DNA from: Alphaproteobacteria bacterium
Lineage (GTDB): Bacteria; Pseudomonadota; Alphaproteobacteria; RF32; CAG-239
Direction: 5' to 3'
Assembly (NCBI GenBank): GCA_015062535.1
Contig: SUUK01000004.1
Location: 62,001-126,000 of the forward strand
Length of the DNA: 64,000 bases
Of the stretch, positions 2,401 to 59,332 are shown piece by piece. The position numbers were made by a program, and so were the translations under genes. The first letter of the stretch is position 1, and the number at the start of each line of letters is the position of its first letter. Below the pieces are notes generated by a model. That model did not search any database. It was not told the origin of the DNA and worked only from the letters and a program-made list of their open reading frames with translations.

Positions 2401-2420
2401 AAAAAACCTCTTTTACAGAA

Positions 2421-2609
2421 CTAAACGGATGCCACAAACCATTCTGGCAATCTTTTAGGCAATTCTACTTCGATACATGCACAAGGAGATAGTTTTAGTT
2501 CGTAAACATCTTTACCAATACCAACAGGTTCTGGTTCATAATAGCTTCCAACCAAACGACAAGAAGCTAATCCTAATAAAACAGATAATAAAATAAGCGC
2601 TTTATACAT
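2421..2609 (-). CDS. VirB7-like small lipoprotein
   Basis: A 62-residue lipoprotein from the ATG at 2609, which has GGGGAG close upstream; an in-frame ATG at 2621 is also possible, with AAGGAG further upstream. The N-terminus is a short hydrophobic signal ending in the lipobox LASC, so Cys would be acylated after cleavage. The mature part carries a Cys-Ala-Cys pair. VirB7 proteins are small lipoproteins that pair with VirB9. The position, between two virB8 genes and just before virB9, and the size fit that role. VirB7 sequences are too short and variable to confirm by eye, so the assignment rests on lipobox, size and context. Confidence 0.7.
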   Translation of the reverse strand: MYKALILLSVLLGLASCRLVGSYYEPEPVGIGKDVYELKLSPCACIEVELPKRLPEWFVASV

Positions 2610-2752
2610 ATTACTCCCCATATAAAAATATTCTCCTTTTATAATTAAATCTTTTAATTTTAAAAGTCTAACGAGAAAATGATTTCCCTGTAACTTATCA
2701 ACAGGGTAAATATCATTATATTTAGGATAACATGCTAATACTTAAATTTTTT

Positions 2753-3511: not shown

Positions 3512-3529
3512 TTTTTATCTTAACTCCTT

Positions 3530-8977: not shown

Positions 8978-8987
8978 GGCGACCTCC

Positions 8988-10289: not shown

Positions 10290-10302
10290 CTTATCCCCCC
10301 TA

Positions 10303-11022: not shown

Positions 11023-11040
11023 ACTTTATCCCTCCACCCT

Positions 11041-13278
11041 TTACTCACTTTCTTCTGGAAAATAACTAAAATCAAAAGTTTGTAAATCTCTTAAAATTTG
11101 TGTTTGCAAATTAAGAGCATCTGTATCTACCATATTGAGCATTTGTTGTGTTCCATAATAGTTTATTTGAGCACCAGCTGCATAAGCATCACGAGCTTGA
11201 CTAATTTGCCTAATACCATCTTGCAAAGATACTATATTTATCTTTCCATTATCTAAACTGCTTACTGGAATATAATCTTCTGTTGAATTATAGTTTGCTA
11301 TAGTTGCTAATACTAAATTTTCAAAAGCTGCATCTTGTAATGCCATCCTTTGTCTATCTTTCCATTCTTTTTTAGTTGCATCAGATGCTTCTTCTTTTGA
11401 TTGTCCTTTAATATATCCTCTACTTGCTCCAGAGGCATACATGTACAAACATTCTTTTAATTTTTCTTCTTGGTCTGTTAGCTGTTCACCTTTTTTAATA
11501 GAAATATCTTCTGCCTTTATTCCACTTACAATTTTTTGATCATGACAATGATACAACATTACATTTGGAAAAACTTTTTGATTATCTGCTTCTATAACTC
11601 CTCCGTTATAATTAAGAGCGTCTTTCACTTCCTCATTATTTTCATCTCTTGTATCTATATAAATATCATTTTCTACAGAAAATATATTCACCATATCTTT
11701 TGCTCTAAATACAGCATCTACTTGACGAATCATACTCCAAAATCTTGGGCTCCAAAGTTCAATTGAAGCTAAGGCAGCTAGACCTGAAAGTGTGTTATCC
11801 ACATCACCTTTACTAATCATCTCTTCTAATGACTTAATTTCTGATTGATTTTCATTATCATCACCTCTAAAGCTAGATGCAAACTGCTTTGCTCTACTTA
11901 TTGTTACAATATTTGCAGAACTATAATCTTGAAGAATGTGCTTATAAACACCATCTTGTAAATAAGGCTTATATAAATCATCTTGAGATTTTTGTTCTTT
12001 TTTCGCCTCAGAAACACATACTCTCAACCAGTTGGGATTATTTAATTTTTTTAAATCATCCTTATCTTTATTATTACACATAAATTCTTTTGATATAAGA
12101 AAAGGACTTCCTTCTGATTGTTCATTATAAACAGCTACAGAAAAGACATTATTTTTCTTACTTGCAAAATTGAAAGAATATTTATCTCCTTGTGTCAAAT
12201 TAACTGGTCTTTTTAGTGGAACAGTTATTTTTTCATCAACAGACGGATTGCTTTTAAACGAAGATGTATCATTTTGTTCAGGTTCATCTTCATCAGAATA
12301 TTCTTTGCTATTACTTATAGAATCTAGCATTTCTTCTTTCAAGTTATCTATTTTTTCAACAACTGCATCAACTTGAGCAGAAAAACTATCTATAAGATTT
12401 TGAGACATTCCACTATCAAGTGAGTTTATTGTATCTTTAAATGTCTCACCTGCAGCCTTTAGCTGTTCAATGCTTATTTTACCTAAAGCATAATCATCTA
12501 TAGCTTTACTATATTGGCTATAAGCATCAGAGATACTTTCTGCATATTGAGTATCTATATTTTCTTTAGCTTGATTTATTGCGCTATTTGCTGTTTCTTT
12601 TAATTTATTAATATCATTTTTAAGATCATTAGCGCTTTGGTTTAATTTATTCTTAGCTTCTTCAGATAAATCTTGATTAGTATTTACTGCACCTACAATC
12701 ATATCGATAGATGTGTTTGCATTATCTAATGTTTCGTTTATATTATCTAAGGCTTCATCATATATTGCATTTATAGCATCTCTATTTGCTTCAGAAGCTT
12801 GTCGCGCTGCTTTTATTATTTCTTGAATATCACTACTATCATATCCACTCATTGCACTTTGATTTACGTTATTTACAGTTGATGATGCATTATCTTTTTC
12901 ATTATTTAAGTAGCCTTCAACTTTTCCTTTAACATCTTCAATTATACCTGTCATTTCATCAATAGCACCTTTTACTGTTTCAACAGCCTCTTCTATTGAT
13001 TCTTTTATTTTTGTTATAGTATTACGCAAGTCTGTCATGTATTTTTTCATTGTTGCTATTTGGTCACCAATAGCTTTAATTGTATTCATTACATTATCTA
13101 ACTGACTTTTTGCATTTGTAATTGTTGAAATCCCAGTTGTTATTGAATTAACAAATGATGATATTTGAGTAATATCAATACATGGCCAAATAAAAGCTTT
13201 TGCAGGGTTAGATAAAACCAAACTACAACATAAGGCAACTATGCCTAATATTTTTTTAGTTGTTGTTTTAATCTTCAT
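11041..13278 (-). CDS. Exported coiled-coil protein of the T4SS cluster (745 aa)
   Basis: No clear family. A signal peptide (1-28, ending NPAKAF) is followed by IWPCIDITQISSFV, very like the mature start of the next gene upstream (FWPVFDFTEIAPVY). Residues ~45-345 are an almost continuous helical coiled coil (many N, K, D, A). A more globular region follows with several Cys, and the last 100 residues are helical with YAAGAQINYYGTQQML. The translation start at 13278 has a strong AGGGAGGG site. The leader around it pairs over 13 contiguous bases with the second hairpin loop of the non-coding locus at 58140-58197. It lies 18 bases before the next gene. Likely a periplasmic or secreted T4SS accessory protein. 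Confidence 0.78.
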   Translation of the reverse strand: MKIKTTTKKILGIVALCCSLVLSNPAKAFIWPCIDITQISSFVNSITTGISTITNAKSQLDNVMNTIKAIGDQIATMKKYMTDLRNTITKIKESIEEAVETVKGAIDEMTGIIEDVKGKVEGYLNNEKDNASSTVNNVNQSAMSGYDSSDIQEIIKAARQASEANRDAINAIYDEALDNINETLDNANTSIDMIVGAVNTNQDLSEEAKNKLNQSANDLKNDINKLKETANSAINQAKENIDTQYAESISDAYSQYSKAIDDYALGKISIEQLKAAGETFKDTINSLDSGMSQNLIDSFSAQVDAVVEKIDNLKEEMLDSISNSKEYSDEDEPEQNDTSSFKSNPSVDEKITVPLKRPVNLTQGDKYSFNFASKKNNVFSVAVYNEQSEGSPFLISKEFMCNNKDKDDLKKLNNPNWLRVCVSEAKKEQKSQDDLYKPYLQDGVYKHILQDYSSANIVTISRAKQFASSFRGDDNENQSEIKSLEEMISKGDVDNTLSGLAALASIELWSPRFWSMIRQVDAVFRAKDMVNIFSVENDIYIDTRDENNEEVKDALNYNGGVIEADNQKVFPNVMLYHCHDQKIVSGIKAEDISIKKGEQLTDQEEKLKECLYMYASGASRGYIKGQSKEEASDATKKEWKDRQRMALQDAAFENLVLATIANYNSTEDYIPVSSLDNGKINIVSLQDGIRQISQARDAYAAGAQINYYGTQQMLNMVDTDALNLQTQILRDLQTFDFSYFPEESE

Positions 13279-13320
13279 GTCAGTCCCTCCCTAATAATCT
13301 ATACTCTAATTATCATCACT

Positions 13321-14757: not shown

Positions 14758-14831
14758 AATACTCCTCCCTAGTAGAATAATATAATTCTTAGCGCATATA
14801 GTATCATATTTTTTAAATTTTGTCAAGACTT

Positions 14832-17282: not shown

Positions 17283-17562
17283 ATTTATTCCCCTTTACTT
17301 TGTAAAGATTAGTTGATTGCAAATTTGTAGCTCCATAGGCTTGAAGCATTCCAGACAAATGCGGATCTTTTGCACTAAGAACCACAACGAAAAGATGTCC
17401 CAAAACTATTGTTATGATAAATATAAGAGGGTTAGCATCAGCCATACCGATTGCCATAAACATAAAAGGAATCTGAAGCCCTGCATTTAAAGCAGCAGGC
17501 AACACAGCCCCCCAAAACAATTTTGGAGGATTAGCAACAGCTTTTAATATTACATCCCTCAT
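17272..17562 (-). CDS. virB3: VirB3 inner-membrane T4SS protein
   Basis: A 96-residue protein with two adjacent hydrophobic helices (about residues 20-40 and 42-62) after a short basic/polar N-terminus (VANPPKLFWGA), then a conserved DPHL segment. This is the VirB3 plan (PF05101). VirB3 associates with VirB4 at the inner membrane, and in some systems the two are fused; here the genes overlap by 11 bases. It lies between the VirB2-like genes and virB4, the canonical order. Confidence 0.9.
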   Translation of the reverse strand: MRDVILKAVANPPKLFWGAVLPAALNAGLQIPFMFMAIGMADANPLIFIITIVLGHLFVVVLSAKDPHLSGMLQAYGATNLQSTNLYKVKGNKFEP

Positions 17563-17675
17563 AATTAACCTCTTAACATACTTTATAGTAGTATATCATG
17601 TTAAATATTACGAAATGATTAAATTTTATATTATTTATATGATTTTATAAACAAGATATATCAAAAAACAAAAAT

Positions 17676-18062
17676 CTACTTACACAAACCACTATAACAA
17701 GAACCCGTTTGACCTGCATTTTTATAATTTTCACCAAATTCATGATCAGCAACGAGACTTGAACTCTGATCCATCGCATTATCTGTTACATAATCGATCA
17801 ACGCACCAACAGCTGAAACCATGAACAAGCTAAGCGTGATATAACCAAGGTGTTTGAAATTTATTTTTCCACTAATTGCTAAAAATGTAAACATTATTAG
17901 ACCAAAACCACTTAACACATATGCTAAATTTCTTAATCCAATAGCAAAAACACCCGCCCTCGTGGAAAGAGTGCCAAAAATATTAGCATTTGCATCAAAA
18001 CACACAAACATGCTAAGAAAAACATACATAGCAACCAATATAAATTTCAAATTCCTTCTCAT
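17676..18062 (-). CDS. virB2: VirB2-like pilin (third copy, with Cys-containing tail)
   Basis: A 128-residue VirB2/TrbC-like pilin. The start is set at ATG 18062, preceded by AAGGAGGG, rather than the longer upstream extension. A signal peptide ends near NANI; two hydrophobic helices follow, separated by the short polar loop GKINFKH, as in VirB2. Unlike the other two copies it has a polar C-terminal tail of ~30 residues ending GSCYSGLCK with two Cys. It is 10 bases downstream of the second copy. Probably a minor or specialised pilus subunit; that role is inference. Confidence 0.82.
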   Translation of the reverse strand: MRRNLKFILVAMYVFLSMFVCFDANANIFGTLSTRAGVFAIGLRNLAYVLSGFGLIMFTFLAISGKINFKHLGYITLSLFMVSAVGALIDYVTDNAMDQSSSLVADHEFGENYKNAGQTGSCYSGLCK

Positions 18063-18072
18063 AACACCCTCC

Positions 18073-18384
18073 TTACTCACCATTCAAGTTCACATCAACG
18101 CCATCCGCAAACAATTGTATAAAACCAGAGCATGATGCGATTACTATCAAACCAACAACTATTGCCATTAACCACTTCCAGTTGATATTACCAAAAAAAC
18201 CACCTATACACACACAAATAACACCAATTGCAGAAGCCGGATATATAATACTCCTTAAACCTACAAATATATTTGTACCAGAAGTCTTCAAACCCGTAAA
18301 CTGAGCCCACGCACTATCAGGAAGCAAAATCACGATAGTCGCAAGAACAACAAATAAAATAAACGACTTATCTAACTTAAACAT
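18073..18384 (-). CDS. virB2: VirB2-like pilin (second copy)
   Basis: A 103-residue VirB2-like protein. The start is ATG 18384, because GGGAGGGAGG at 18400-18391 is an ideal ribosome-binding site; the longer frame to 18402 would run through that site. A signal peptide ends SAWAQ, and two hydrophobic helices flank the loop GNINWKW, matching GKVKWTW and GKINFKH in the other copies. The leader from about 18408 to 18384 is 23/25 identical to the third loop sequence (plus strand) of the hairpin locus at 58205-58266, so this mRNA is the best candidate target of that RNA. It follows an intrinsic terminator and has its own putative promoter. Confidence 0.85.
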   Translation of the reverse strand: MFKLDKSFILFVVLATIVILLPDSAWAQFTGLKTSGTNIFVGLRSIIYPASAIGVICVCIGGFFGNINWKWLMAIVVGLIVIASCSGFIQLFADGVDVNLNGE

Positions 18385-18413
18385 AACATACCTCCCTCCC
18401 AATTATATCTTTT

Positions 18414-18442
18414 ATCATACCACATTTTTTCTAATTTTTCCA
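18414..18442 (-). promoter_or_regulatory. Putative promoter for virB2 copies 2-3 and downstream T4SS genes
   Basis: On the minus strand a TGG-extended -10 TATGAT (18419-18414) lies 17 bases after TGGAAA (18442-18437). It is just downstream of the terminator that follows the first virB2, and it would let the rest of the operon be expressed independently. Consensus match is moderate. Confidence 0.42.
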
Positions 18443-18540
18443 CTAAAAAAAGACATCCTTAAAAACTTCCAACACATTGTTTTATAACTATTTTTACTGC
18501 TTGTAACAAAAGTTTAATATTGTAAACTTTTATTTATATA

Positions 18541-18574
18541 AAAAAGTATCGGGAGCAAAACTCCCGATACTTTA
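18541..18574 (-). terminator. Intrinsic terminator/attenuator after the first virB2
   Basis: A perfect 13-bp stem (AAAGTATCGGGAG/CTCCCGATACTTT, 18543-18573) with a five-base loop is followed on the minus strand by a T-rich run. It separates the first virB2 from the other T4SS genes, so this pilin can be made in excess while partial read-through feeds the operon. Confidence 0.85.
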
Positions 18575-18597
18575 TTTTGTTTAGTGATACACACAGA

Positions 18598-18975
18598 TTA
18601 TTCACCAGTACCACCAGCAATACCTGTACCAGCACCTTCAAATGTATCTATCACTTCTGCGTTATGTGCTGCACCTCTACCCATTATATCACCTGTTGCG
18701 TAGTTTACAATAGATGCTGCAGCAGCCAAGATAGCCATACCAACTGCAAGACCTGCAAACCATGTCCATTTTACTTTACCGAAAATAGCTTGGAAAGCAA
18801 TACCTACTAAACCGAAACCACCTACAACAAAGATAATAATTTTAACGTGGTTAAAAATTGTAACAGCTTTTTCTGTCGCTGTGTTCATAACTTGCGCATG
18901 AGATGCATCCGCAAATAATAAAGTAAACAAGAATGCTAAAGAGCACAATGTTAACATTTTTTTCAAGTTTCTCAT
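18598..18975 (-). CDS. virB2: VirB2-like major T4SS pilin (first copy)
   Basis: A 125-residue VirB2/TrbC-like pilin. The start is ATG 18975 after TAGGAGAACG; the frame upstream to 19035 overlaps the promoter. A signal peptide ends DASHAQ. Two hydrophobic helices are separated by GKVKWTWF, the short cytoplasmic loop of VirB2 pilins, and the C-terminus is Gly/Ala-rich. As first gene behind its own promoter and followed directly by a strong terminator it is the likely major T-pilus subunit. Two diverged copies follow. Its start is divergent from the type IVb pilus cluster, 294 bases away. Confidence 0.88.
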   Translation of the reverse strand: MRNLKKMLTLCSLAFLFTLLFADASHAQVMNTATEKAVTIFNHVKIIIFVVGGFGLVGIAFQAIFGKVKWTWFAGLAVGMAILAAAASIVNYATGDIMGRGAAHNAEVIDTFEGAGTGIAGGTGE

Positions 18976-19006
18976 TTTCGTTCTCCTAAATTTATTACAC
19001 ATTATT

Positions 19007-19035
19007 ATTAGAGCACATTTTTTAAAAAAAATCAA
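19007..19035 (-). promoter_or_regulatory. Putative virB2 promoter
   Basis: TTGATT (19035-19030), a 17-base spacer and TCTAAT (19012-19007) sit about 35 bases upstream of the virB2 start. The remaining divergent spacer (19036-19269) is very AT-rich and contains no gene that I can see. Confidence 0.45.
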
Positions 19036-20601: not shown

Positions 20602-21696
20602 ATGAAAAAAAGTTTGTTATTATCGTTTTGTTTATTATGCGTAGCTGGAGTATCTGCTTGCAAAAGCACTTCTGCACAAGCACCTAACGACAGTGATGTT
20701 TTTTACTTTGAGGACACAGCTGAAGTTATTGACACAACAACTCTTCCCAAAGAAAGATGTGGAGTTAATGGTATTAGCTGCAACGACACAGCTCTTGTAA
20801 ACTATACAAAGACAGAAGCTGATTACAGAGCTCATACCGAACGCACAAAACGCGACCATCTTTACACTCAAGCTGGAGCTGGCAACAATTTAACTGCAAC
20901 TCTTAGACCTGGAGTTGAGGCAGATATTGTTGTAGCAAACAACATTCCTTCTGAACCGACACCTGTTACAGAACCTGTTATAGATGAAGGAGCATTTAGC
21001 GAAACCGGTAGTTTAGATATGACACCTGAACAAATTCAAGCTCCTGAAGTTATTGAAGAAAATATTGGTAGAGCAGATAATATAGAAACTAAGAAAAAAA
21101 CTATAATACAAACTGTAACAGAAGAAGACGGCACAATATATGAAATCGTTTGCCAAGATATAGCTTGTACAGAAGTTGAAAAGATAAAACAAACAATTGA
21201 AGAAGATGGATCTAAATACGAGATAATCTGTGAAGAAAACTGCGAAGAAATCATGAGTGCAAATGCAGATGATGATGTTATTACATCTGAGTTCACAGAA
21301 GAATCTTTTGATATCGCAGATTACATAGATCAAGATGGAAATGAATTAGATATAGAATTTAATGAATATGGCCTAAAAGAACAAGTTATCGCAGATGCTT
21401 CTGTTGAAAAAGTTAAAATCACTGACGAAAGTGTGTTAACTTGGGAAGCTGAAGAAGGTGATAATTTACGTGAATTGTTAACAAAATGGAGTGAAATGTC
21501 TGGTTGGAAATTATTGTGGAAAACAAACCGCAATTACACTCTTAGTGCTGGCGTAATGTTTAAAGGTAAATTTGCAGATGTAAGTTCAGCTTTAATTAGA
21601 GCTTTTGCTAGAGCAAGACCTGCACCAATTGCTACATATTACAAAGGCAACCGTGTTATAGTTGTTGAAACAATGGAGAACGAGAATGCGTACTAA
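20602..21696 (+). CDS. TcpQ/PilL-type pilus lipoprotein
   Basis: A 364-residue lipoprotein: the signal sequence ends in the lipobox VSAC at about residue 20. A long acidic region (about 40-265) contains two near-repeated segments of the type TxxEDGxxYEIxC. The C-terminal ~85 residues match the TcpQ family (toxin-coregulated pilus protein Q): LTWEAEEGDNLRELLTKWS, then SGWKLLWKTN, then YKGNRVIVVE near the end. TcpQ-type proteins help place the secretin of type IVb pili in the outer membrane. The gene overlaps the secretin gene by 11 bases. Acid-rich paired-Cys repeats are unusual for the family. Confidence 0.85.
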   Translation: MKKSLLLSFCLLCVAGVSACKSTSAQAPNDSDVFYFEDTAEVIDTTTLPKERCGVNGISCNDTALVNYTKTEADYRAHTERTKRDHLYTQAGAGNNLTATLRPGVEADIVVANNIPSEPTPVTEPVIDEGAFSETGSLDMTPEQIQAPEVIEENIGRADNIETKKKTIIQTVTEEDGTIYEIVCQDIACTEVEKIKQTIEEDGSKYEIICEENCEEIMSANADDDVITSEFTEESFDIADYIDQDGNELDIEFNEYGLKEQVIADASVEKVKITDESVLTWEAEEGDNLRELLTKWSEMSGWKLLWKTNRNYTLSAGVMFKGKFADVSSALIRAFARARPAPIATYYKGNRVIVVETMENENAY

Positions 21697-23287
21697 TGGA
21701 AAATTTTTAATAGGATTAAGCTCTCTTTTATTTTTAGGTGTTGCTTCTTGCTCATTACCTACAGATTTTGATGCTGCTATTGAACGTGATGTTGATGCGA
21801 CTGTTCAATATAAAGAAGATGCCAAAGCTCCTCAAAAGGTTTCAGACACAGATGTTATTAGAATAAAAGATGATATTTGGCTCGGAGATACTAGTGATGT
21901 GGAATATGAAGGTGATAAACCTTTACCAAGTTATTTAGAAACAAATGATGGTATCACACTGGTTAGCAACCGCCCTATTACATTGTATGAGATTGGTAAT
22001 ACTATTAGCCAAATTACTTCTATTAAAATGCGCTTTGCAGCACAATTAGAAGGTCCAGCAAAAGCAGCTGCTGACAAAAATGCCCCAACTATTTCTAAAG
22101 TAGGTAGCAAATGGTCAGATACATCTAGAATGCTTGTTTCTTACAAAGGTTCTTTAAGTGGCTTATTAGATGAGGTATGCTCTTATTTTGGTGTATGGTG
22201 GAAATACGAAAATGGTGAAATTTACATTTATAAATATACCACAAAAACATTTACATTATACACTCTTCCAACAAAACCATCTATGACATCTAGTGTTAGT
22301 AGCTCTTCTGGTGGTGGAAGCATTACTAGTGGTGTATCTGGTATAGATTTATGGGGAAATATTGTAACTGCTGTAAAATCAATGTTAGGTTCCGGCTCTA
22401 GTTTGGTAACAGATCCTTCAAATGGCACATTAACAATAACTGCGACTCCTGTTGAAATAAAAAAGGTTGCTAAATTTGTTCATGAACAAAATGTAAGACT
22501 TTCTCGCCAAGTTGCGATTAGTGTAAAAGTTTTACAGGTAGATGTTGATGAAGCTCATGGTTATGGTTTTGACTTAGATGCAGCATTTAAAGATAGAACA
22601 GAAAGTGGTGGAAGTATATCTATCGGCGAAGTTACAACACCTAGCTCTTTAGTTGATAGCAATGCTGGTATATCTATGAAAATTTTAGGTGGTGATGTTA
22701 GTGTAAATGCCGCTATGCAAGCTCTTGCAACACAAGGTACAACAACTTTGGTTACAAGTGGTACAGTTACTACTATGAATAATAAACCAGCTCCAATCCA
22801 AGTTGTTAAAACACAAAACTACATCTCTGAGTATACAAAAACAAATAATGGTACAGTTAATGGTGATGCATCATGGGATACAACTGTTGAAACAGAAGAA
22901 ATTGAAGTAGGTTTCACATTAGATGTTTTACCAAGAATTATGGATCATGGTCGTTTGATGATGCTGTTTAGCTTAAATCTTTCTGACCTATTATCTTTAG
23001 AGAAAGTGTACCTAGATGGTTCTGAAGAATCCGGCTATATTCAAAACCCTGTTATCGAAGAACGTGGTTTCGTACAGGAAGTTGCATTGAAGTCAGGCGA
23101 AACACTTGTGTTATCTGGTTATGAAAGAGTTGAAACATCTAGTGATAAAGAAGGTTTAGGCGCAGTAAACAATATGTTACTTGGTGGCCATCAAAATGTT
23201 GGCAAAAAAAGAAGTATTGTTGTGATTTTATTAACACCTGTTGTGCTAGAATCTCCATTATTACCTGAGTCTCGCATGAATTACTAA
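21686..23287 (+). CDS. pilN: Type IVb pilus secretin PilN
   Basis: A 533-residue outer-membrane secretin lipoprotein. The start is ATG 21686 (GGAG upstream) inside the end of the preceding gene; the earlier in-frame start at 21662 would spoil the lipobox, which reads GVASC. Residues ~85-190 are an STN/N0-like region, a Ser/Gly-rich stretch (SSSSGGGS) lies near 205, then an N1-type domain and the secretin C-domain with LKSGETLVLSGYE and KKRSIVVILLTPVVLES. PilN forms the gated outer-membrane ring through which the pilus exits. It is coupled to the TcpQ-type gene upstream and to pilO2 ten bases downstream. Confidence 0.93.
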   Translation: MRTNGKFLIGLSSLLFLGVASCSLPTDFDAAIERDVDATVQYKEDAKAPQKVSDTDVIRIKDDIWLGDTSDVEYEGDKPLPSYLETNDGITLVSNRPITLYEIGNTISQITSIKMRFAAQLEGPAKAAADKNAPTISKVGSKWSDTSRMLVSYKGSLSGLLDEVCSYFGVWWKYENGEIYIYKYTTKTFTLYTLPTKPSMTSSVSSSSGGGSITSGVSGIDLWGNIVTAVKSMLGSGSSLVTDPSNGTLTITATPVEIKKVAKFVHEQNVRLSRQVAISVKVLQVDVDEAHGYGFDLDAAFKDRTESGGSISIGEVTTPSSLVDSNAGISMKILGGDVSVNAAMQALATQGTTTLVTSGTVTTMNNKPAPIQVVKTQNYISEYTKTNNGTVNGDASWDTTVETEEIEVGFTLDVLPRIMDHGRLMMLFSLNLSDLLSLEKVYLDGSEESGYIQNPVIEERGFVQEVALKSGETLVLSGYERVETSSDKEGLGAVNNMLLGGHQNVGKKRSIVVILLTPVVLESPLLPESRMNY

Positions 23288-23297
23288 GGAGCAAAAC

Positions 23298-24575
23298 GTG
23301 GCTGAAGAAGACGAAATACTTGATGATTCTACTGAAAATGGCGCAAACCTAAGTAGTAAGGAATGGGCTTCTAGCTTTACTGTTAGAGGTGTTCCATATG
23401 CTGCCAGTGTATTTTGGGAAAGTCTTCAAAATGTAGATGCACCTTTCTTAGATGCAAAAGATGCAGCTGAAAATGTTTTAGTTGGCGCAGACTTGTTTTG
23501 TGTAAAGCATGGTAAATCACCACAGCTTGGTTTAGCAATATCATCACAAGGATTTAAAAAGGGTATGAATGTAGCTGCAGTTACAGCAGTTACATCTATG
23601 AGTGATGCATCTTCTTTGCTTGCCGTTTTTAAAGTAGATGCAGGATATTGGTATCTTTGTGTTAGAAATGATGTAATTTTATCTGATGGTGACGTATTAT
23701 TTGTAAAAGAAGAAGATGCTAAAGAGCAGTTTATGTCAATGCTTTCTGTTCCTGATTGGTCAAAGAAAATTGCACCAGAAGAATGGGGAATCGATGACAC
23801 TGAACAAAGAGATATTTCTGAAGTATTTGCTCAAGGGCTTGATTCAAAACTTGAAAAGATAAATGCTCTCCGTGGTACAGAATTATTAATTGTTGTAGTA
23901 TTAAGTATTGCAGCTGGTGCTTGGTTAATTTCATACATATCAGAAACATTTTTTAAAACAGATGTTCAGCAGATGCATGTTCAAACACGAAGAGCACAGA
24001 AAAAAAAGGTCAAAAAAGTTGAAGTAGTTATTCCTGCTCCATGGGAATCTATGATTGATCCTGTTTGGATGTTAGATAATTGTCGTCAATCTATTTTATC
24101 ACTAACCTCAATTTCTGCTCCTGGTTGGAGAAATCAAGGTGTTACTTGCATGGCATCTGGTGCTATGACTTCGTGGAATAAAGAGTTTGGTCGTTTATCT
24201 TGGATTGAGATGTCTTTAGCATATTCTGGATTAAGCTTTTCAAGTAAAACTATTGATCCATCATCATCAATAGTTACTGTTTCTCTGCCATTTCAAGAAG
24301 CTAAAAGAATAAAATCAGCACCTAAAAAGACTATGACAGAATTGCGACATATGGTGAATGATTTATTTCAGGCATTAAATTTAAGGATAAGTATTTCTGA
24401 AGAAAAGTCCACTGTTGGTGGTAAAGTGTATGAATCATTAAAATTTGGTATAACATCAAAATATGATCCTGAAGTTTGGAAAGAATTGTTAACAAAATTT
24501 TCAGGACTTAGGGTTAATAATATACGTTATGTTGATGGCGTATGGAATTATGAGGGGGCTATTTATGTTCAATAG
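23298..24575 (+). CDS. Type IVb pilus inner-membrane protein PilO2
   Basis: A 425-residue protein beginning with GTG at 23298 after AAGGAGC. The N-terminal cytoplasmic half (about 25-195) and one transmembrane helix (about 197-217, LLIVVVLSIAAGAWLI) followed by a periplasmic half match the PilO2 family of R64-type thin pili. The order PilN-PilO-PilP-ATPase-GspF is that of IncI plasmid pil clusters. The protein likely links the cytoplasmic ATPase to the periplasmic alignment complex. The end overlaps the pilP start by 11 bases. Confidence 0.88.
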   Translation: MAEEDEILDDSTENGANLSSKEWASSFTVRGVPYAASVFWESLQNVDAPFLDAKDAAENVLVGADLFCVKHGKSPQLGLAISSQGFKKGMNVAAVTAVTSMSDASSLLAVFKVDAGYWYLCVRNDVILSDGDVLFVKEEDAKEQFMSMLSVPDWSKKIAPEEWGIDDTEQRDISEVFAQGLDSKLEKINALRGTELLIVVVLSIAAGAWLISYISETFFKTDVQQMHVQTRRAQKKKVKKVEVVIPAPWESMIDPVWMLDNCRQSILSLTSISAPGWRNQGVTCMASGAMTSWNKEFGRLSWIEMSLAYSGLSFSSKTIDPSSSIVTVSLPFQEAKRIKSAPKKTMTELRHMVNDLFQALNLRISISEEKSTVGGKVYESLKFGITSKYDPEVWKELLTKFSGLRVNNIRYVDGVWNYEGAIYVQ

Positions 24576-26007
24576 TAAAAAAATACATCTTTTGAGTTTA
24601 GCTGCATTAGGTATTATTTTAGGTGCAAATAACAGCTTTGCTGCAGAAAGCAAGATTGCGAGTATTGACGGCAATAATTTGCCTATAAATTCAGCTACAC
24701 CAGAAAAGGCGACAAAACCTGTGTCTACGCAACCAGCTAATTCTTTAGTATCTCCTTCAAAGCCTCAATCTACTGAAACTAAAAAAGAAGTAGATATTAA
24801 GAATGCTGAAAAAACAGTACAAAAAGCTCCTTTACCAAAAGAAAATGAAAAAACTAAAGATGATTTTGATTTTGACCTAAAAATGAAGGCAATCACACCT
24901 CCTTCTTCACCTAGTGCTACGCCAAAAGCTACTGAAGAAAAGAAAGAGGCTACTAAAGAAGTTACTAAAGAAGATTTATCAGAGGATTTGCCTAAAGATA
25001 TAAAATACAAATCAAACCCTATTGAGAATCTAGGAAATAGTGTTTTATCTCAAATGGATGATGACTTATTTAAACAAATGTCTGATATCGAAAAAAGCAC
25101 AACTCTATTAACATTAGAGTTAAAGAGAGAAAAAATACGTAACGAAATTGAGGCTCAAAAGGCTATTCGTCAAAAAAACATTGATGACATTGAAAAGCAA
25201 AAGGCAGAACAACGTATGTTAGAGCTTCAAAAGAAAAAAGAACTTGAAACAGAAGTTATTAACGCAAAGCAACACTTGCTTGACAGAGAACAAATGTTTG
25301 AAGTTTTAAAACAACGCAAACTGTTAAATGCTTATATGAATCATATGCTTGTTATGCAACAAGATTGGTTAAAAGAAAAAGAAGCATTATATGGTCAATT
25401 AGCAGCAATGGAACAAGAAAAAAGAGATTTGATTGCAGCTTTCAAACAGAGAATCGATTCTGTGTTAGAAGCTTCAGCTAAAAATATACAAGTTGCAGAA
25501 GCTGCAAAGGCTAACTTTGAAAGAGTTGTTAAAAACTTAAAAGCTCGTAACGAACAATTGCGTAAGAGAGTTGAAGCCGATGCTAAGATTATAAAAAATG
25601 CTAAAAATATGTATATTCAATCTCAATCTATTGAAGAGCTTAAAGACATGAATGCAGCGAATCGCAGTTTAGCAGAAAGCAATGCAGAGGCTTTAGCTTT
25701 AGCAGCTTTAGAAGCAGCAGAAGAAGAAGTTGAAGAAGTTGTAATTGAAAAATTAAGCACTAAATATGCCTTATTGGGTATTTCTGGACGAGCTGAATCT
25801 ATGTCTGTAGAACTAATTGGCACAGATGGCCAACCATTTTTAATAAAAGTTGGATCATTATTACCAACAGGTCACACACTTAAAGAGATTGGTTCTGATT
25901 ATGCTAAATTTAGCAAAGATGGTTATGATGATTATTTATATATAGGTAAAACTATTGATGGATATACTCCATTGTTAGGTCAAGCATCAGAAAAGAATGC
26001 AAAATAG
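24565..26007 (+). CDS. pilP: Type IV pilus biogenesis protein PilP
   Basis: A 480-residue exported protein. The start is ATG 24565 with GAGGGGGC upstream, and a signal peptide ends NSFAAES. After a Pro/Lys/Thr-rich linker comes a long coiled coil (about 165-370, Q/K/E-rich). The final ~70 residues (ALLGISGRAESMSVELIG, then a compact strand-rich end) fit the PilP/GspC-type domain that contacts the secretin. R64 PilP proteins are much shorter, about 150 residues, so the coiled-coil insertion is a notable enlargement that could span a wide periplasm. Function inferred from position and the C-terminal domain. Confidence 0.82.
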   Translation: MFNSKKIHLLSLAALGIILGANNSFAAESKIASIDGNNLPINSATPEKATKPVSTQPANSLVSPSKPQSTETKKEVDIKNAEKTVQKAPLPKENEKTKDDFDFDLKMKAITPPSSPSATPKATEEKKEATKEVTKEDLSEDLPKDIKYKSNPIENLGNSVLSQMDDDLFKQMSDIEKSTTLLTLELKREKIRNEIEAQKAIRQKNIDDIEKQKAEQRMLELQKKKELETEVINAKQHLLDREQMFEVLKQRKLLNAYMNHMLVMQQDWLKEKEALYGQLAAMEQEKRDLIAAFKQRIDSVLEASAKNIQVAEAAKANFERVVKNLKARNEQLRKRVEADAKIIKNAKNMYIQSQSIEELKDMNAANRSLAESNAEALALAALEAAEEEVEEVVIEKLSTKYALLGISGRAESMSVELIGTDGQPFLIKVGSLLPTGHTLKEIGSDYAKFSKDGYDDYLYIGKTIDGYTPLLGQASEKNAK

Positions 26008-26045
26008 AGCATAAAACATTATATATTATGTATGGATGAGTAGTA

Positions 26046-27719
26046 ATGGCTGAGGAAAATAAAAAAGAAGAGCTAAAAGACGAACAAGTTGCAGAACAAC
26101 CTAAACCTCAATCAAATTTTGAGGAAGAAGAAGGTGGATCACAAGCAAAAAAGGTAAACTTGTTTGAAAAGTTATTTGCTAATGGTAATAAATTAATTAC
26201 TGTTAGTGGTTCTGATTTTGCTCTATCTAATGAAACAAGACGCTTACTTGCTCTTTTCTCTGACGGAACATATTTAGTATCAAAAGATAATAGATTTGAT
26301 GGTGCAGTATATAACTTCGAATCGAATGTTAAAAGAAGAAAAATACCGATTAAAGCGCCAACTTTTGTTACATTAAATGAAATTGCTGCTATATATGCTT
26401 ATGCAGAGCGTGGTACAGGTACTGTTGACGTATCTGCAGAAGAAGCTGAAGATATGCAAATGATGATTGACTTTGTCAACATTATTCAACGCGCATCACA
26501 AAAAAAAGTATCCGACGTTCACATTGTTGTAGGTTCATCTTCTACGGTATTATTCCGTGAAGGCGGTATTATGGTTAAGCAAAGTGAATATGGTGGCGAA
26601 TGGGGAGAAGCTTTTGTTCGTTCCGTTTTTGCTGCAGCTGATATTTCAGACTCTAACTATAACCAAAACGAATTCCAGGGCGCACAAAAACTTGGTGCTA
26701 CACCACTTCGTGGATCAAATGGTAAATTGATGTTACCGCACAACGTTTTAGCTATTCGTTTGCAATTTAACCCTATCGCGTTTGGTTCTCAATATTTGGT
26801 TATGCGTTTGCTTTATGCAGATGATAATCCAGAAGGTAGTTCAGACTTACGATCACTTGGTCTTGGAAAATATGAAGAAGATTTGTTCTTTAAAATGCGT
26901 AGTATGGCCGTTGGACTTAACGTGGTTGCTGGTCCTACTGGTTCAGGTAAGTCTACAACTCTTCAACGTAATATGATTAAACTATTACAAGAAAAAGATT
27001 ATAAGATTAACCTATTAACGGTGGAAGATCCACCTGAGTATCCAATTCCTGGCGCTCGCCAAATGCCTGTGACCAACGCTAACACTGAGGAAGAAAAAAC
27101 AGAACAATTTACAAAAGCATTATCCGCGGCTCTTCGTTCCGACCCTGACGTTATATTGGTGGGTGAAACGCGTTCATTAGCTACTGCTGAATTGACTTTT
27201 AAGGGAGCTTTGTCTGGTCACGGTGTTTGGACAACACTTCACGCCAACTCTGCGCCTGCGATTATTACTCGTTTGAGAGACATTGGTATTCAGCCATATA
27301 TGTTAAACGACCCAGAATTAGTTAAAGGACTTGTTTCTCAACGTTTGTTTAGTAAATTATGTCCTGTATGTCGCCAATCTATAAAAACTAAAGAGGGTTC
27401 TCCAGAGTTTGAGCGTTTGAAAAATGCTCTTGGTGAATATGGTATTGAAAACGTTTATGTTAGTGGTCCTGGTTGTAAGGCTTGTGGCTATAAAGGATTT
27501 AAAGGCAGAATGGCTGTTGATGAAATTATTTTGCCTGACTCGCATTTCTTAAAATTAATTATTGATAATGAAACAGCAAAAGGTATTGACTATTGGATTA
27601 GTGAATTAAATGGTCGCCCTCTAAAAGACTGCGCTATTGAGCGTATGATTAAGGGTTTAATTGACCTTGATGAAGTTGAACGTTGGTGTGGTTTGATTGA
27701 CCAAAGACCTGTATATTAG
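26046..27719 (+). CDS. pilQ: Type IVb pilus assembly ATPase (GspE/PilB family)
   Basis: A 557-residue secretion ATPase that powers pilus extension. Walker A GPTGSGKST is at about 296-304, an Asp-box region has VEDPPEYP, Walker B DPDVILVGE begins at about 366, and a His box region has GVWTTLHANS. Two CxxC pairs near 439 (CPVC) and 477 (CKAC) form the zinc-binding C-terminal module typical of GspE/PilB. The acidic N-terminus (about 1-45) is low complexity. The symbol follows R64 nomenclature, where PilQ is the ATPase, not the secretin of other systems. It sits between PilP and the GspF-like protein. Confidence 0.93.
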   Translation: MAEENKKEELKDEQVAEQPKPQSNFEEEEGGSQAKKVNLFEKLFANGNKLITVSGSDFALSNETRRLLALFSDGTYLVSKDNRFDGAVYNFESNVKRRKIPIKAPTFVTLNEIAAIYAYAERGTGTVDVSAEEAEDMQMMIDFVNIIQRASQKKVSDVHIVVGSSSTVLFREGGIMVKQSEYGGEWGEAFVRSVFAAADISDSNYNQNEFQGAQKLGATPLRGSNGKLMLPHNVLAIRLQFNPIAFGSQYLVMRLLYADDNPEGSSDLRSLGLGKYEEDLFFKMRSMAVGLNVVAGPTGSGKSTTLQRNMIKLLQEKDYKINLLTVEDPPEYPIPGARQMPVTNANTEEEKTEQFTKALSAALRSDPDVILVGETRSLATAELTFKGALSGHGVWTTLHANSAPAIITRLRDIGIQPYMLNDPELVKGLVSQRLFSKLCPVCRQSIKTKEGSPEFERLKNALGEYGIENVYVSGPGCKACGYKGFKGRMAVDEIILPDSHFLKLIIDNETAKGIDYWISELNGRPLKDCAIERMIKGLIDLDEVERWCGLIDQRPVY

Positions 27720-27729
27720 GAGATAAACT

Positions 27730-28851
27730 ATGGCAGATGATAAAAAATCAAGTACAGGCTCTCTTAATAAAGCAATGAAGTCTTTGAACTCATTGGAAGT
27801 TTCTTTTGCTCAATTTCGTGTTGGAATGTCTGGTAAAGACAGATTAAAGATATATAAAAAATTAGCATCATTACTTAGAAACCGTTTCTCTTTGATGAAT
27901 GCTTTAGATATTATGTATGATAGTATTACCAACGAAGGAAAAAACCCTGGTGAACCGATGGCTATTGCTATTGCATCATGGGGTAAATCACTTCAAAATG
28001 GTAACTCTTTTTCAGATGCTCTAAAAGGATGGGCTCCAAGCCGCGAAAGACTTATGCTTTCTGTGGGTGATATGTCAGACTTAGAAGGTGCTTTATTAAA
28101 CTTGATTAAAGTTGCTGAAGGTACAGAAAAAATGTTAAAGCCAATTATTGGTGCTATTGCATATCCTTCGTTTTTGCTTTTAATGTCTGTGCTTGTTATT
28201 TATGCTATTGGTGCATACATGGTGCCTCCAATGGAAGACGCTGCCCCTAATGCTAGATGGACTGGTACGGCAAGAGATTTGGTGGCTGTTTCTCACTGGA
28301 TACAAGACAACTGGCTTTTAGCCTTTTCTTTCTTTCCTGCATTATTTTTAGCAATTTATCTAACAATTGGTATATGGACCGGTCCAACTAGAAAAGCTAT
28401 CGATAACTGCCCACCTTGGTCTATGTATAAGCTATTTATGGGTATTACATGGCTATTGTCTTTATCTGCTCTTATTAAGGGTGGTGTGCCTATTTCAGTT
28501 GCTCTGTCAGCTCTTAGAAAAGACTCAAATAGATATCTAATAGAAAGAATAGATAAGGCCATGGATTTTATTAAAAATGGTGATAACTTGGGTCAAGCAT
28601 TGTCTAAGTCAAAATTGGATTTCCCTGACAAAGATATTGTTGCTGACCTAAAGATTTATGCTGAATTGGATAACTTTGAAGAAGCTTTGGATAGACTAGC
28701 AAACGACTGGCTTGATGCATCAGCAGAAATGGTTGAAGCAAAAGCATCAATATTGAACATGGTTGCTATGTTTGCAATTTCTGGCATTATTGCATGGGCG
28801 GTGTTTGGAGTGTTCGAAATGCAAGACCAAATTACAAGTGCTATGGGATAA
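27730..28851 (+). CDS. pilR: Type IVb pilus platform protein (GspF/PilR family)
   Basis: A 373-residue inner-membrane protein of the GspF/PilC family, the platform onto which the extension ATPase acts. A GspF cytoplasmic domain lies at about 35-140, followed by transmembrane helices near 145-168 and 190-215. A second cytoplasmic domain (about 225-335) precedes a final helix near 340-360. It begins with a good GGAGATAAACT site ten bases after the ATPase. The symbol is that of R64 PilR, the integral membrane component. No truncation. Confidence 0.9.
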   Translation: MADDKKSSTGSLNKAMKSLNSLEVSFAQFRVGMSGKDRLKIYKKLASLLRNRFSLMNALDIMYDSITNEGKNPGEPMAIAIASWGKSLQNGNSFSDALKGWAPSRERLMLSVGDMSDLEGALLNLIKVAEGTEKMLKPIIGAIAYPSFLLLMSVLVIYAIGAYMVPPMEDAAPNARWTGTARDLVAVSHWIQDNWLLAFSFFPALFLAIYLTIGIWTGPTRKAIDNCPPWSMYKLFMGITWLLSLSALIKGGVPISVALSALRKDSNRYLIERIDKAMDFIKNGDNLGQALSKSKLDFPDKDIVADLKIYAELDNFEEALDRLANDWLDASAEMVEAKASILNMVAMFAISGIIAWAVFGVFEMQDQITSAMG

Positions 28852-55696: not shown

Positions 55697-57100
55697 ATGG
55701 ACAATCAAGAACTAAAAAAAATATGGAAAGAAAAATATTTAGTAGTCCCACAATGCTTAGAAAAATTAAAAAAAATATCTAAAACAGCAACAGCCTTTAA
55801 CACAAATATAGATGCAATATACAAAATTAAAGGTTCTCAATTAGAAACTCTTTTAAAAGACTTTAATATAGAGGCTAAAGAAATAGAGCATATTACTATT
55901 TCTAGCTTTAATGAACCAAGAGATATTATCTTAGGCATAACCAAATGCTTTACACGTGGCATTGCAGAAGAATGGGTTACAGAAGATATAAATATATATA
56001 ACTGGCTTAAAGATAACATTGGTTATCAACGTTTACAAATGGGTGGACAAGGTGGCATTATAGGAAACACTTTAGCTCTTCTTGGCATAAAAGAAGTTAT
56101 CGCCCACACTAATTCTCACCCCAAATTACAAGCTGAGCAATTTCTTGATTTAAGCAATTTACTTGCTTTTGATGATGAGGGCAAATTAAGACAAGCGTCT
56201 TTAGTTGAGCGCAAAGAAGATACACCACTTATTCACTGGATTATAGAATTTGATAAAGGTGATGCATTTTTGCTCGATGATAAAACATTTACTTGTCCAA
56301 AATCAAATCGCTTTATCGCAACTTATGATCCATGTAATATGAACCTAGTTATGAACAAAGATTTTGTTTCATATCTAAACACAACAAAAACTGATTATTT
56401 GCTATTATCAGGCTTCAACCCTTTGCTTGAAAAAAATAATGGTCTAGCACTAATAGATAATGCGGTTAATGTTATATCAGAATGGAAATCATCAAACAAG
56501 GACATGATTATTCACTTAGAAATTGCATCAACTCAAGATAAAGCCATTAGAAAAGCCATTGTAGATAAAATAGCTCCTCTTTCAAATTCTATTGGTTTGA
56601 ATGAACGTGAGACAATCGACCTACTTGAAGTTATGGGACAAAATACTCTTGCTAAAAAAATAGAAAATAACACAACAAGTACAAACTTATTTGATGCTAT
56701 TTTGTATCTAAAAAAGACATTAAAAGTTGAACGCATCCAACTTCATATGTTTGGGCTTTACCTTACAATTCAAGATAAAACTTTTAAACACACACCAGAA
56801 AACAACATAAATGGAATGATTACTGCATCTGTTGTATCATCAAGCAAAGCTTATAATGGTGAGATAACAAAGTATGAGCACTTAACTCTTGCATCAGACA
56901 GGTTTGTTTCAGATATTGGTTTAAGTGAATTATCTAATCTTGCTAATAAGCTTAACAAACCAGAATTACTCAGCACTGGTCTTTGTAACTTTGATGATTT
57001 TATTATAACCGCAATACCAACCATTATTATTGACCAACCCAAGACATTGGTTGGTATGGGTGATACTATTTCGTCAGTATCACTATTAGCTGGTGCATAA
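55697..57100 (+). CDS. ADP-dependent glucokinase/phosphofructokinase family sugar kinase
   Basis: A 467-residue protein matching the ADP-specific PFK/GK family (PF04587), a ribokinase-fold group best known from archaea. Seen: FNTNIDAIY near the N-terminus (substrate region), GGQGGIIGN (about 114-122), the metal-coordinating NxxE motif in GLNERET (Asn302 to Glu305), and the catalytic GMGDTISS at the C-terminus with Asp456 as base. It would phosphorylate glucose or fructose-6-phosphate using ADP; which sugar cannot be decided. AAGGAG precedes ATG, ten bases after hemY. The C-terminus is complete. Confidence 0.86.
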   Translation: MDNQELKKIWKEKYLVVPQCLEKLKKISKTATAFNTNIDAIYKIKGSQLETLLKDFNIEAKEIEHITISSFNEPRDIILGITKCFTRGIAEEWVTEDINIYNWLKDNIGYQRLQMGGQGGIIGNTLALLGIKEVIAHTNSHPKLQAEQFLDLSNLLAFDDEGKLRQASLVERKEDTPLIHWIIEFDKGDAFLLDDKTFTCPKSNRFIATYDPCNMNLVMNKDFVSYLNTTKTDYLLLSGFNPLLEKNNGLALIDNAVNVISEWKSSNKDMIIHLEIASTQDKAIRKAIVDKIAPLSNSIGLNERETIDLLEVMGQNTLAKKIENNTTSTNLFDAILYLKKTLKVERIQLHMFGLYLTIQDKTFKHTPENNINGMITASVVSSSKAYNGEITKYEHLTLASDRFVSDIGLSELSNLANKLNKPELLSTGLCNFDDFIITAIPTIIIDQPKTLVGMGDTISSVSLLAGA

Positions 57101-57262: not shown

Positions 57263-57910
57263 TTAGTTCAGTGTATTGTAGAATTCCAGAAGCTTATCAG
57301 CGACTTCTTCATCCAATAACTGATTTTCAACTCCGTAGTCAAGCAGTGTCTTTACAGTAACAAGGCTGTACTTTTCGATATTGTTTTCTTCAAACATTTT
57401 GTTTACAGATGGGATATCCCAATCAAAAACGCTATAAACACTCAAAACTTCGGCCCTTTTACCATTTTTTCCTGCTCTTAGAGCATTTACAACACTTAAA
57501 GCAGACTTTCCGGTTGTAATCACATCATCAAGCACAACAACTTTTGCCCCATCAAATGGAAGCTCTCCTGCTATCTGGTTATACAACCCATGGTCTTTGG
57601 GTGATGTTAACACATAAAGCAATGGCACAATTTTGCTATTTGCTATAGGTGATGCCCAGACAGTTCCGCCATTGGCAATACCAACAACCGCATCAGACTT
57701 GGGATGATGTTGATTTATCCAAAACAGCATTGAACCGCAAATTCTAGCCCTTGCATCAAAATCACTTATCAGCACGCTAGCGTCAATATAAAGAGGTGAT
57801 AAAACACCCGAGCTTAACAAGAATGGCTCTTTAAAATTTATTTTCAAAGCACCATTTTTGTAGAGATACTTCATGACTCGTTCTTTTGAGTCTTTTTCCA
57901 TGTCGAACAT
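57263..57910 (-). CDS. pyrE: Orotate phosphoribosyltransferase
   Basis: A 215-residue enzyme of de novo pyrimidine synthesis converting orotate and PRPP to OMP. The PRPP-binding motif is VVVLDDVITTGKSA at about 120-133, and the flexible-loop region has SPKDHGLYNQIAGE. The ATG at 57910 has only a weak site; ATG 57901 is an alternative. It stands alone with its own promoter and terminator. Confidence 0.93.
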   Translation of the reverse strand: MFDMEKDSKERVMKYLYKNGALKINFKEPFLLSSGVLSPLYIDASVLISDFDARARICGSMLFWINQHHPKSDAVVGIANGGTVWASPIANSKIVPLLYVLTSPKDHGLYNQIAGELPFDGAKVVVLDDVITTGKSALSVVNALRAGKNGKRAEVLSVYSVFDWDIPSVNKMFEENNIEKYSLVTVKTLLDYGVENQLLDEEVADKLLEFYNTLN

Positions 57911-57984: not shown

Positions 57985-58032
57985 TAATTTTATTTTTATA
58001 AATAATTTATGATTTTTAATATCATTTAAAAC

Positions 58033-58062
58033 AAAAAAACCGCCAGAGCACATTCTGGCGGT
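58033..58062 (-). terminator. Terminator of the hairpin-array RNA
   Basis: A 9-bp GC-rich stem ACCGCCAGA/TCTGGCGGT (58039-58047, 58054-58062) with a six-base loop is followed on the minus strand by seven T. On the plus strand no T run follows. This fixes the likely direction of the non-coding transcript as minus. Confidence 0.9.
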
Positions 58063-58068
58063 ATACAA

Positions 58069-58127
58069 ATAAGCCACTTTAATATTTTATAAAGTAAGGG
58101 AGATGAGATATGAGCTAAGTGGCTTAT
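58069..58127 (-). repeat. Hairpin unit 1
   Basis: Arms ATAAGCCACTT and AAGTGGCTTAT pair without mismatch. The loop (58080-58116, plus strand) has AAGGGAGATGAGATATGAG. It lies nearest the terminator. On the minus strand it is preceded by a run of ten T that would also follow unit 2. Confidence 0.88.
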
Positions 58128-58139
58128 AAAAAAAAAGAA

Positions 58140-58197
58140 AATAAGCCGCGTTTTAAGATATTAGGGAGGGAGATTGAATTATGAGCAGCGGCTTATT
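58140..58197 (-). repeat. Hairpin unit 2
   Basis: Arms AATAAGCCGC and GCGGCTTATT are perfect complements. The loop (58150-58187) has TTAGGGAGGGAGATT on the plus strand. Compared with unit 1 both sides of the stem change together at the third position from the loop, a compensatory pattern. On the minus strand T-rich sequence follows the stem, so unit 2 could itself terminate. Confidence 0.88.
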
Positions 58198-58204
58198 AAA
58201 GGGA

Positions 58205-58266
58205 AAATAAACCGATTAAGATATATTTGGGAGGGAGATATGATAAATGAGAAAATCGGTTTATTT
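58205..58266 (-). repeat. Hairpin unit 3
   Basis: Arms AAATAAACCGATT and AATCGGTTTATTT form a perfect 13-bp stem. The loop (58218-58253) has TTTGGGAGGGAGATATG on the plus strand. That segment and its flank are 23/25 identical to the leader of the second virB2-like gene (18384-18408), so the minus-strand loop is nearly fully complementary to that mRNA start. Confidence 0.9.
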
Positions 58267-58442
58267 ATGGGGGTGAGGCACCTCTTGACTTCCACATTCG
58301 TGGAGGACAATCTTTATTATTCTTCTTTTTATTTAGGATATTAATGCGAAATATCAAAAGATACCCCAATGGTCTATATAAGTAATAACTTAAGCAAAAT
58401 CTTTATTTTTTTTGTGATTTGTTTCAACCACCTTATATAGAC

Positions 58443-58470
58443 AAAATACACAAAAAATAATATTTGTCAA
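58443..58470 (-). promoter_or_regulatory. Putative promoter of the hairpin-array RNA
   Basis: TTGACA (58470-58465), 16 bases, TATTTT (58448-58443) on the minus strand. Immediately downstream is GTCTATATAAG (58442-58432), with its exact inverse CTTATATAGAC at 58382-58372, possible paired operator sites around the transcription start. No other element in the AT-rich stretch 58471-58600 could be supported. Confidence 0.45.
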
Positions 58471-58714: not shown

Positions 58715-59332
58715 TTAGATATATTTCAAAGCAATAGCGTTGTTTGCATTGTTACTACAAGATGTTTGTGCATTAACAATGCTCATTGGCGTACCATTAC
58801 TTGGATCACCAGGAATTGCTATAGATGACTTAGCTGAAATATCTGACCCTTTTAATTCAGCAGCAGCTGCTGATCCATCACCAGTACCACTTACAATCAT
58901 AGCAGCAAAACCAGAACCTACGTCACCACCCCAGTCTGTTGTTGCAGCAGCAACACATGCAGCTTTTGGAAGACCATCAAAACCAATGATGTAAGCAGCA
59001 TCTTCTTGACCATTATGGTTACCTGTCAAAATAGTAATCTTACCTTGGAAAGCGTTAGTAATTGTATCGTTACTTTCACTACTAAACATATCACCAGAAA
59101 CAGCACCAGCTTTTTTAGCTAATTGGTTATTCAAACCATTGTAGTTTCTTTGAGAAGAATACAATGTTCTGATGTTTGTAGAAATCATATTGATTTGGTC
59201 AATAACTTTGTTTGTTTTGAATTTGTTCATAGCTTTTGAGTAACCAGCAATACCACCCACTGATAACACACCAACGATGGCCAAAACGCCGAGCATCTCA
59301 ATCATAGAACGACCTTGTTCATTAACTCTCAT
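58715..59332 (-). CDS. pilS: Type IVb major pilin (PilS-like)
   Basis: A 205-residue prepilin. The leader MRVNEQG is cut after Gly7, giving RSMIEMLGVLAIVGVLSVGG with Glu at mature position 5 and a hydrophobic N-terminal helix. Leader length and the missing N-terminal Phe point to a type IVb form. Two Cys (KAACVAA and TSCSNNANNAIALKYI) bound the C-terminal disulfide region. TAGGAG precedes the ATG and a strong terminator follows, as for an abundant subunit. The matching assembly genes are at 19270-30457; no prepilin peptidase is in the window. Assignment as subunit of that pilus is inference. Confidence 0.88.
   Translation of the reverse strand: MRVNEQGRSMIEMLGVLAIVGVLSVGGIAGYSKAMNKFKTNKVIDQINMISTNIRTLYSSQRNYNGLNNQLAKKAGAVSGDMFSSESNDTITNAFQGKITILTGNHNGQEDAAYIIGFDGLPKAACVAAATTDWGGDVGSGFAAMIVSGTGDGSAAAAELKGSDISAKSSIAIPGDPSNGTPMSIVNAQTSCSNNANNAIALKYI

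Follow-up and report, generated by a model that had tools for sequence, protein, structure and literature searches.

In rhizobia, the alpha-r14/NfeR1 RNAs (RFMSmelA075 and RFMSmelA099) fold into three or four hairpins, in which a near-identical anti-Shine-Dalgarno (anti-SD) loop sits on stems of divergent sequence, and NfeR1 silences ntrB via pairing at the start region of this gene (PMC3927594, PMC10746234). Hairpin number varies both in this group and in the cuckoo/CcsR RNAs, and their CCUCCUCCC loops are borne by stems that diverge in sequence (PMC3927594, PMC10746234, PMC10253847). The loops of LhrC from Listeria contain redundant CUCCC/UCCC sites through which this RNA binds a surface-protein mRNA at its SD region (PMC4132741). 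The locus described here resembles LhrC in its CUCCC/UCCC loop sites, which appear to be aimed at SD regions, whereas LhrC belongs to an unrelated organism and is short and multicopy, with two loops plus a linker. The transfer system of F-like plasmids is controlled by FinP, a stem-loop antisense RNA that covers a ribosome-binding site (RBS). FinP is cis-encoded and fully complementary to traJ, whereas the RNA proposed here lies about 40 kb from its predicted target and is only partly complementary to it.

The array analysed in this work is located in the genome of an uncultured gut alphaproteobacterium, near one end of a stretch of 64,000 nucleotides, hereafter the window (Table 1). As judged by comparison of genomes, it represents a genuine, conserved family of multi-hairpin anti-SD sRNAs in one gut genus, a family absent from Rfam 15, and the locus almost certainly functions as an RNA read from the minus strand. 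An earlier sequence-only reading had described three adjacent units with perfect but mutually different stems of 10-13 bp, and these were found again as inverted repeats of 11, 10 and 13 bp. The common loop motif that it assigned to all of them stands for the units at 58140 and 58205, the minus strand of which contains CUCCCUCCC, and not for the unit at 58069. Of the 14 inverted repeats in the window that combine 10-bp arms with a loop of roughly 20-50 nt, exactly three contain CUCCC/GGGAG in the loop, and these three are neighbours; in each of 12 dinucleotide-shuffled versions of the window, the count was 0 or 1. Three adjacent structures with the CUCCC motif are thus not expected by chance. 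The predicted minus-strand fold has an energy of -94.9 kcal/mol against -65.8 +/- 4.9 in shuffles and leaves the CU-rich loops unpaired.

Table 1. Features of the proposed sRNA locus and its predicted targets, in window positions.
Feature	Position	Strand	Basis
Proposed sRNA, ~400 nt	58030..58436	-	fold z -5.9, homologues, promoter alignment; start inferred from -10, 3' end from terminator
Promoter: -35 TTGACA 58470-58465, 16-nt spacer, -10 TATTTT 58448-58443	58443..58470	-	consensus scan and homologue alignment
5' domain: small hairpins, then long stem GGGGUAUC...ACCCC (hairpin 0)	58273..58436	-	folds of 8 homologues
Hairpin 1: 13-bp stem 58205-58217/58254-58266, 36-nt loop 58218-58253 with CUCCCUCCC	58205..58266	-	perfect inverted repeat, fold
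Hairpin 2: 10-bp stem 58140-58149/58188-58197, 38-nt loop 58150-58187 with CUCCCUCCCUAAUA	58140..58197	-	perfect inverted repeat, fold
Hairpin 3: 11-bp stem 58069-58079/58117-58127, 37-nt loop 58080-58116 with CUCCC(UUAC) only	58069..58127	-	perfect inverted repeat, fold
Intrinsic terminator: 9-bp stem, 6 GC pairs, then T run	58039..58062	-	terminator scan, minus strand only
Predicted target: SD and start codon of 103-aa gene (MFKLDKSFILFVV...), small T4SS-operon protein, AAGAUAUAAUUGGGAGGGAGGUAUGUUAUG	18384..18414	-	duplex -38.5 kcal/mol
Second predicted target: start region of 745-aa T4SS-operon gene, GAUUAUUAGGGAGGGACUGACAUG	13276..13303	-	rank 2 of 373, hairpins 1 and 2

The boundaries 58033-58310 proposed earlier fit the array; the RNA itself probably starts about 125 bases further 5', near 58436. 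The promoter consensus scan by itself performs no better than chance, and it is the alignment that places a TTGACA-N16/17-TGTGTAATTTATGTC block at the matching position in 8/8 homologues, from which the RNA is put at about 400 nt in this genome and, in relatives, at about 310-430 nt. At the other end, the strong terminator, which the earlier reading had placed exclusively on the minus strand, was found there (58062-58039), and each homologue likewise ends with a G+C hairpin followed by T's. The closing pairs of hairpin 0 in relatives, GGGGUAUC/GAUACCUC, GGGGUAUU/AAUGCCCC, CGGGAUA/UAUCCCG and CGGAUAG/CUGUCCG, covary by eye, and CCUCCACG lies inside hairpin 0 of three genomes (G000, G007 and G013). 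In addition, an 11-bp inverted repeat (GTCTATATAAG/CTTATATAGAC, 58372-58441) overlaps the expected transcription start and might serve as an operator or form a 5' hairpin.

The proposed RNA is similar to alpha-r14/NfeR1 in its three anti-SD-loop hairpins with divergent stems; in relatives, one to four such hairpins are recognisable. Nevertheless, the loop motif is CUCCCUCCC or CUCCC here, whereas theirs is the ultraconserved CCUCCUCCC; exact CCTCCTCCC is absent from the window, and its one-mismatch version from the sRNA locus. It also differs in its long loops of 20-50 nt, a conserved AATAA[AG]CC stem base, a long 5' domain within a total of about 400 nt, occurrence at a single locus per genome, confinement to a single gut genus and predicted targets in a type IV secretion system (T4SS). 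With CcsR/cuckoo of Rhodobacter and others it shares tandem anti-SD hairpins and a variable module number. Whereas in Rhodobacter a single transcript is processed into several sRNAs, one array with one terminator is present here, and whereas a DUF1127 neighbour is frequent, though not universal, for CcsR/cuckoo, no listed neighbour of the own locus (ORFs of at least 60 aa) is DUF1127. Rfam gave no match to the sRNA locus at the gathering threshold, and a search of four loci at E up to 1 gave nothing on the sRNA of three (L001, L002 and L003). At the 5' end of the fourth (L005), matches to the miRNA mir-627 and to STnc50 were weak and far below gathering, and were set aside. The sequence-only reading had named CcsR and the cuckoo RNAs as a precedent in principle for a different RNA, a distinction that is borne out by the Rfam searches, which gave nothing relevant up to E<=1, and by the differing motif and loop size. 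Because the loop motif is not theirs, the loops are much longer and Rfam gives no match, the RNA is not filed as a member of alpha-r14/cuckoo. By all visible signs it would work like the alpha-r14/NfeR1/cuckoo sRNAs, and common ancestry with them is neither shown nor excluded.

The sRNA is flanked by a pilin-like gene, a phosphoribosyltransferase gene and an ADP-dependent kinase gene. The first (58715-59332) encodes a Bundlin/PilS-like pilin with the segment RSMIEMLGVLAIVGVLSVGG, and proteins that share its N-terminal segment are encoded several times over in sister genomes. Downstream lie an orotate-type phosphoribosyltransferase gene (57263-57910) and an ADP-dependent glucokinase/phosphofructokinase-like gene (55697-57100), a type of gene that is unusual in bacteria. 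Among several relatives, the gene neighbourhoods of the sRNA vary.

At the DNA level, diverged copies were recovered from sister genomes, and a search for the stem-loop-stem pattern was positive in eight genomes of the genus. Covariance model R1, built from 19 hairpins, detected the same eight among 18 genus genomes, the top-scoring hairpin reaching 1e-8 to 1e-10. In the seven other genomes, the gene has the shared promoter and comprises 1-4 hairpins that can be recognised. Their loops retain CUCCC(UCCC) on covarying stems, which supports the signature of functional RNA proposed earlier, a conserved loop on compensating stems. In the ten other genus genomes, a TCTCCCTCC search gave 45 sites, and no similar hairpin was seen at the 30 with examined flanks. 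Model R1 gave no convincing match across the rest of the 153 genomes of the order, its matches outside the genus being weak, the best at 1e-3 in G143. Each positive genome has one sRNA locus and no scattered copies; no further copy was found elsewhere in the own genome, and searches of plasmids and of IMG/VR viral contigs yielded no match to the sRNA. The true matches in the genome collection are alphaproteobacterial metagenome-assembled genomes (MAGs), whose sources, where named, are ruminant guts; most non-alphaproteobacterial pattern matches have no other part of the locus and were dismissed. The sole occurrence found outside the genus is an array at 3365-3719 of a mosaic-looking contig of a Prevotella MAG (JAFZRU010000017.1), which has 1.7 kb (neighbour gene, array and promoter) in common with genome G015 at 85% identity. 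A neighbouring reading frame on this contig fuses an ABC-ATPase start to RHS-like sequence, which makes a chimeric contig as likely as gene transfer.

In the reading that we favour as the probable one, the locus specifies a trans-acting minus-strand sRNA that pairs with ribosome-binding sites, with genes of the T4SS operon as its leading targets. Transcription of the minus strand would yield an sRNA of about 400 nt, whose repeated hairpins may present long single-stranded loops with CU-rich anti-SD sequence. These loops would pair with the region from the SD to the start codon of target mRNAs and thereby block 30S binding, and several hairpins could offer several docking sites per molecule. 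Pairing may be assisted by Hfq, which was detected over the cut-off (PF17209) in 15/18 genus genomes, including the own genome. That the RNA acts by pairing at ribosome-binding sites is likely on the predicted duplexes. The earlier proposal that minus-strand loops block such sites is upheld as far as pairing is predicted, and the blocking itself belongs to the model. On the whole, the mechanism is strongly suggested and the target is partly supported.

A VirB-type T4SS operon occupies 1645-19035 of the window (minus strand), with two VirB8 paralogues, VirB4 and a VirB2/TrbC-like gene; VirB4 is kept in 16/18 genus genomes, with about 78-83% identity among full-length cases. A type IVB pilus cluster faces this operon on the plus strand (20602-28851) and encodes a TcpQ-like protein, a PilN-type secretin, PilO, a PilQ-type ATPase and a PilR-type protein. 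Upstream of the 745-aa T4SS gene (13278, minus strand), GATTATTAGGGAG is conserved in most relatives examined, G013 being different, and its conservation exceeds what a ribosome-binding site needs.

The complements of the loops resemble start regions, that is, GGGAGGGAG followed by AUG. Four CTCCCTCCC sites exist in the own genome: two in the hairpins, one inside a coding sequence and one at the RBS of the 103-aa T4SS gene, which is foremost among the candidate targets. The start region of this gene was matched to the sRNA at the DNA level (E 0.002 in the own genome), and its predicted duplex with hairpin 1 covers about 25 nt, interrupted by a single mismatch and including one G-U pair. Among 373 start regions, a sample from 23-27% of one genome ranked by hybridisation energy alone, it was first for hairpin 1 (mean -12.1, sd 4.6), followed by the 745-aa gene (-23.9) and the pilin-like gene (-23.7), in which the pairing spans the SD and the start codon. 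When the flanks of the hairpin 1 loop were shuffled and the core was kept, 0/3000 loops equalled the duplex with the 103-aa gene, and in a scan of both strands of 444 kb, which passed over windows without a G-rich seed, the next non-self site reached -29.9, i.e., 8.6 weaker. The duplex of hairpin 2 with the 745-aa gene was equalled by 10-20% of flank-shuffled loops, and hairpin 3 had no standout T4SS target in either the 373 start regions or the 444-kb scan. Since the leading predicted targets lie in the T4SS operon, the RNA would most likely hold down translation of the T4SS.

Several results are also consistent with a second reading, namely that the same minus-strand sRNA is a broad anti-SD regulator of stress or metabolism, NfeR1/cuckoo-like, and that the T4SS match is one of many or arose by chance via strong SDs. 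Known alphaproteobacterial multi-hairpin anti-SD sRNAs act in this way (PMC10746234, PMC3927594), and many non-T4SS start regions are found at -24 to -29. The loops favour T4SS start regions over those of other genes in G000, G005, G013 and G017 (Mann-Whitney p 5.6e-6 to 0.03). The 16S tail shows the same preference (p 7e-5, own genome), so the general enrichment may partly reflect SD strength. In a cognate test of three T4SS genes, same-species loops did no better than the loops of other species, except for the own hairpin 1 with the 103-aa gene, and a common target sought for the loops UUCUCAUCUCCCUCCC and AUAUCAGUCUCCCUCCC, which are conserved in other species, was not found. A T4SS is present in 8/8 sRNA-positive genomes and the sRNA is undetected in the two genomes without detectable VirB4; eight T4SS-positive genomes have no detected sRNA. 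Against a broad regulator stands the 25-nt match of hairpin 1 to the 103-aa gene, which is far outside the distribution and extends beyond the core motif, and we consider this second reading rather unlikely. Because of the SD-strength confound, the failed cognate test, the T4SS genomes with no detected sRNA and the loops for which no target was found, control of the T4SS is put forward as the leading hypothesis and not as a result, and the chances that the operon is among the true targets are about evenly balanced.

The covariance-model search suggested by the sequence-only reading recovered the homologues in related genomes, the stems of which covary. In the alignment of 19 hairpins from eight genomes, 98.1% of stem cells are paired, 7/11 stem pairs have double-sided changes, and double-change cells number 29 against 10.2 in shuffles. 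The covariation score (0.407 vs 0.189 in shuffles) was reached by 0/500 shuffles and fell to 0.03-0.07 in slid-partner controls; as the units are partly paralogous and form two stem classes, the cells are not independent events. Read on the minus strand, the stem cells contain eight G-U and no A-C combinations, and since a G-U pair turns into A-C when the opposite strand is read, this count favours a minus-strand RNA, the strand chosen earlier, in agreement with the conserved promoter and the terminator. On the plus strand, the loops read (A)GGGAGGGAG...AUG and the fold also beats shuffles (z -3.6), by which GGGAGGG followed by AUG in each loop might act as decoy ribosome-binding sites, or GGA loops might sponge a CsrA-type protein; with no plus-strand terminator at the array, promoter and terminator both conserved on the minus strand and wobbles of 8 vs 0, such a function is very improbable. 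Equally hard to credit is a DNA element (mobile-element ends, a recombination site or a transfer origin) whose hairpins covary as DNA, for the similar AATAA[AG]CC/GG[TC]TTATT unit ends, the secretion and pilus genes close by and the differing neighbourhoods in several relatives are outweighed by the constant order between conserved promoter and terminator, the single locus per genome, the G-U asymmetry and the absence of plasmid or IMG/VR matches.

Within the favoured reading of a trans-acting sRNA directed at ribosome-binding sites of the T4SS operon, a more specific version can be imagined. Each loop would be an antisense copy, from SD through start codon, of particular T4SS or type IVB pilus mRNAs, hairpins would be gained and lost as the operon start regions evolve, and the RNA would be dedicated to dosing the secretion machine; we regard this as doubtful. 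To our knowledge, almost nothing has been known of regulatory RNAs in uncultured gut alphaproteobacteria, for which a well-supported sRNA family with a clear anatomy and no Rfam entry is now at hand, and the near-perfect 25-nt match between one loop and one mRNA offers a ready experiment. Should the RNA have no kinship with alpha-r14/cuckoo, this architecture would have evolved on two occasions. If the link to the T4SS is true, this would be a chromosomal multi-hairpin RNA that controls a secretion system through many ribosome-binding sites.
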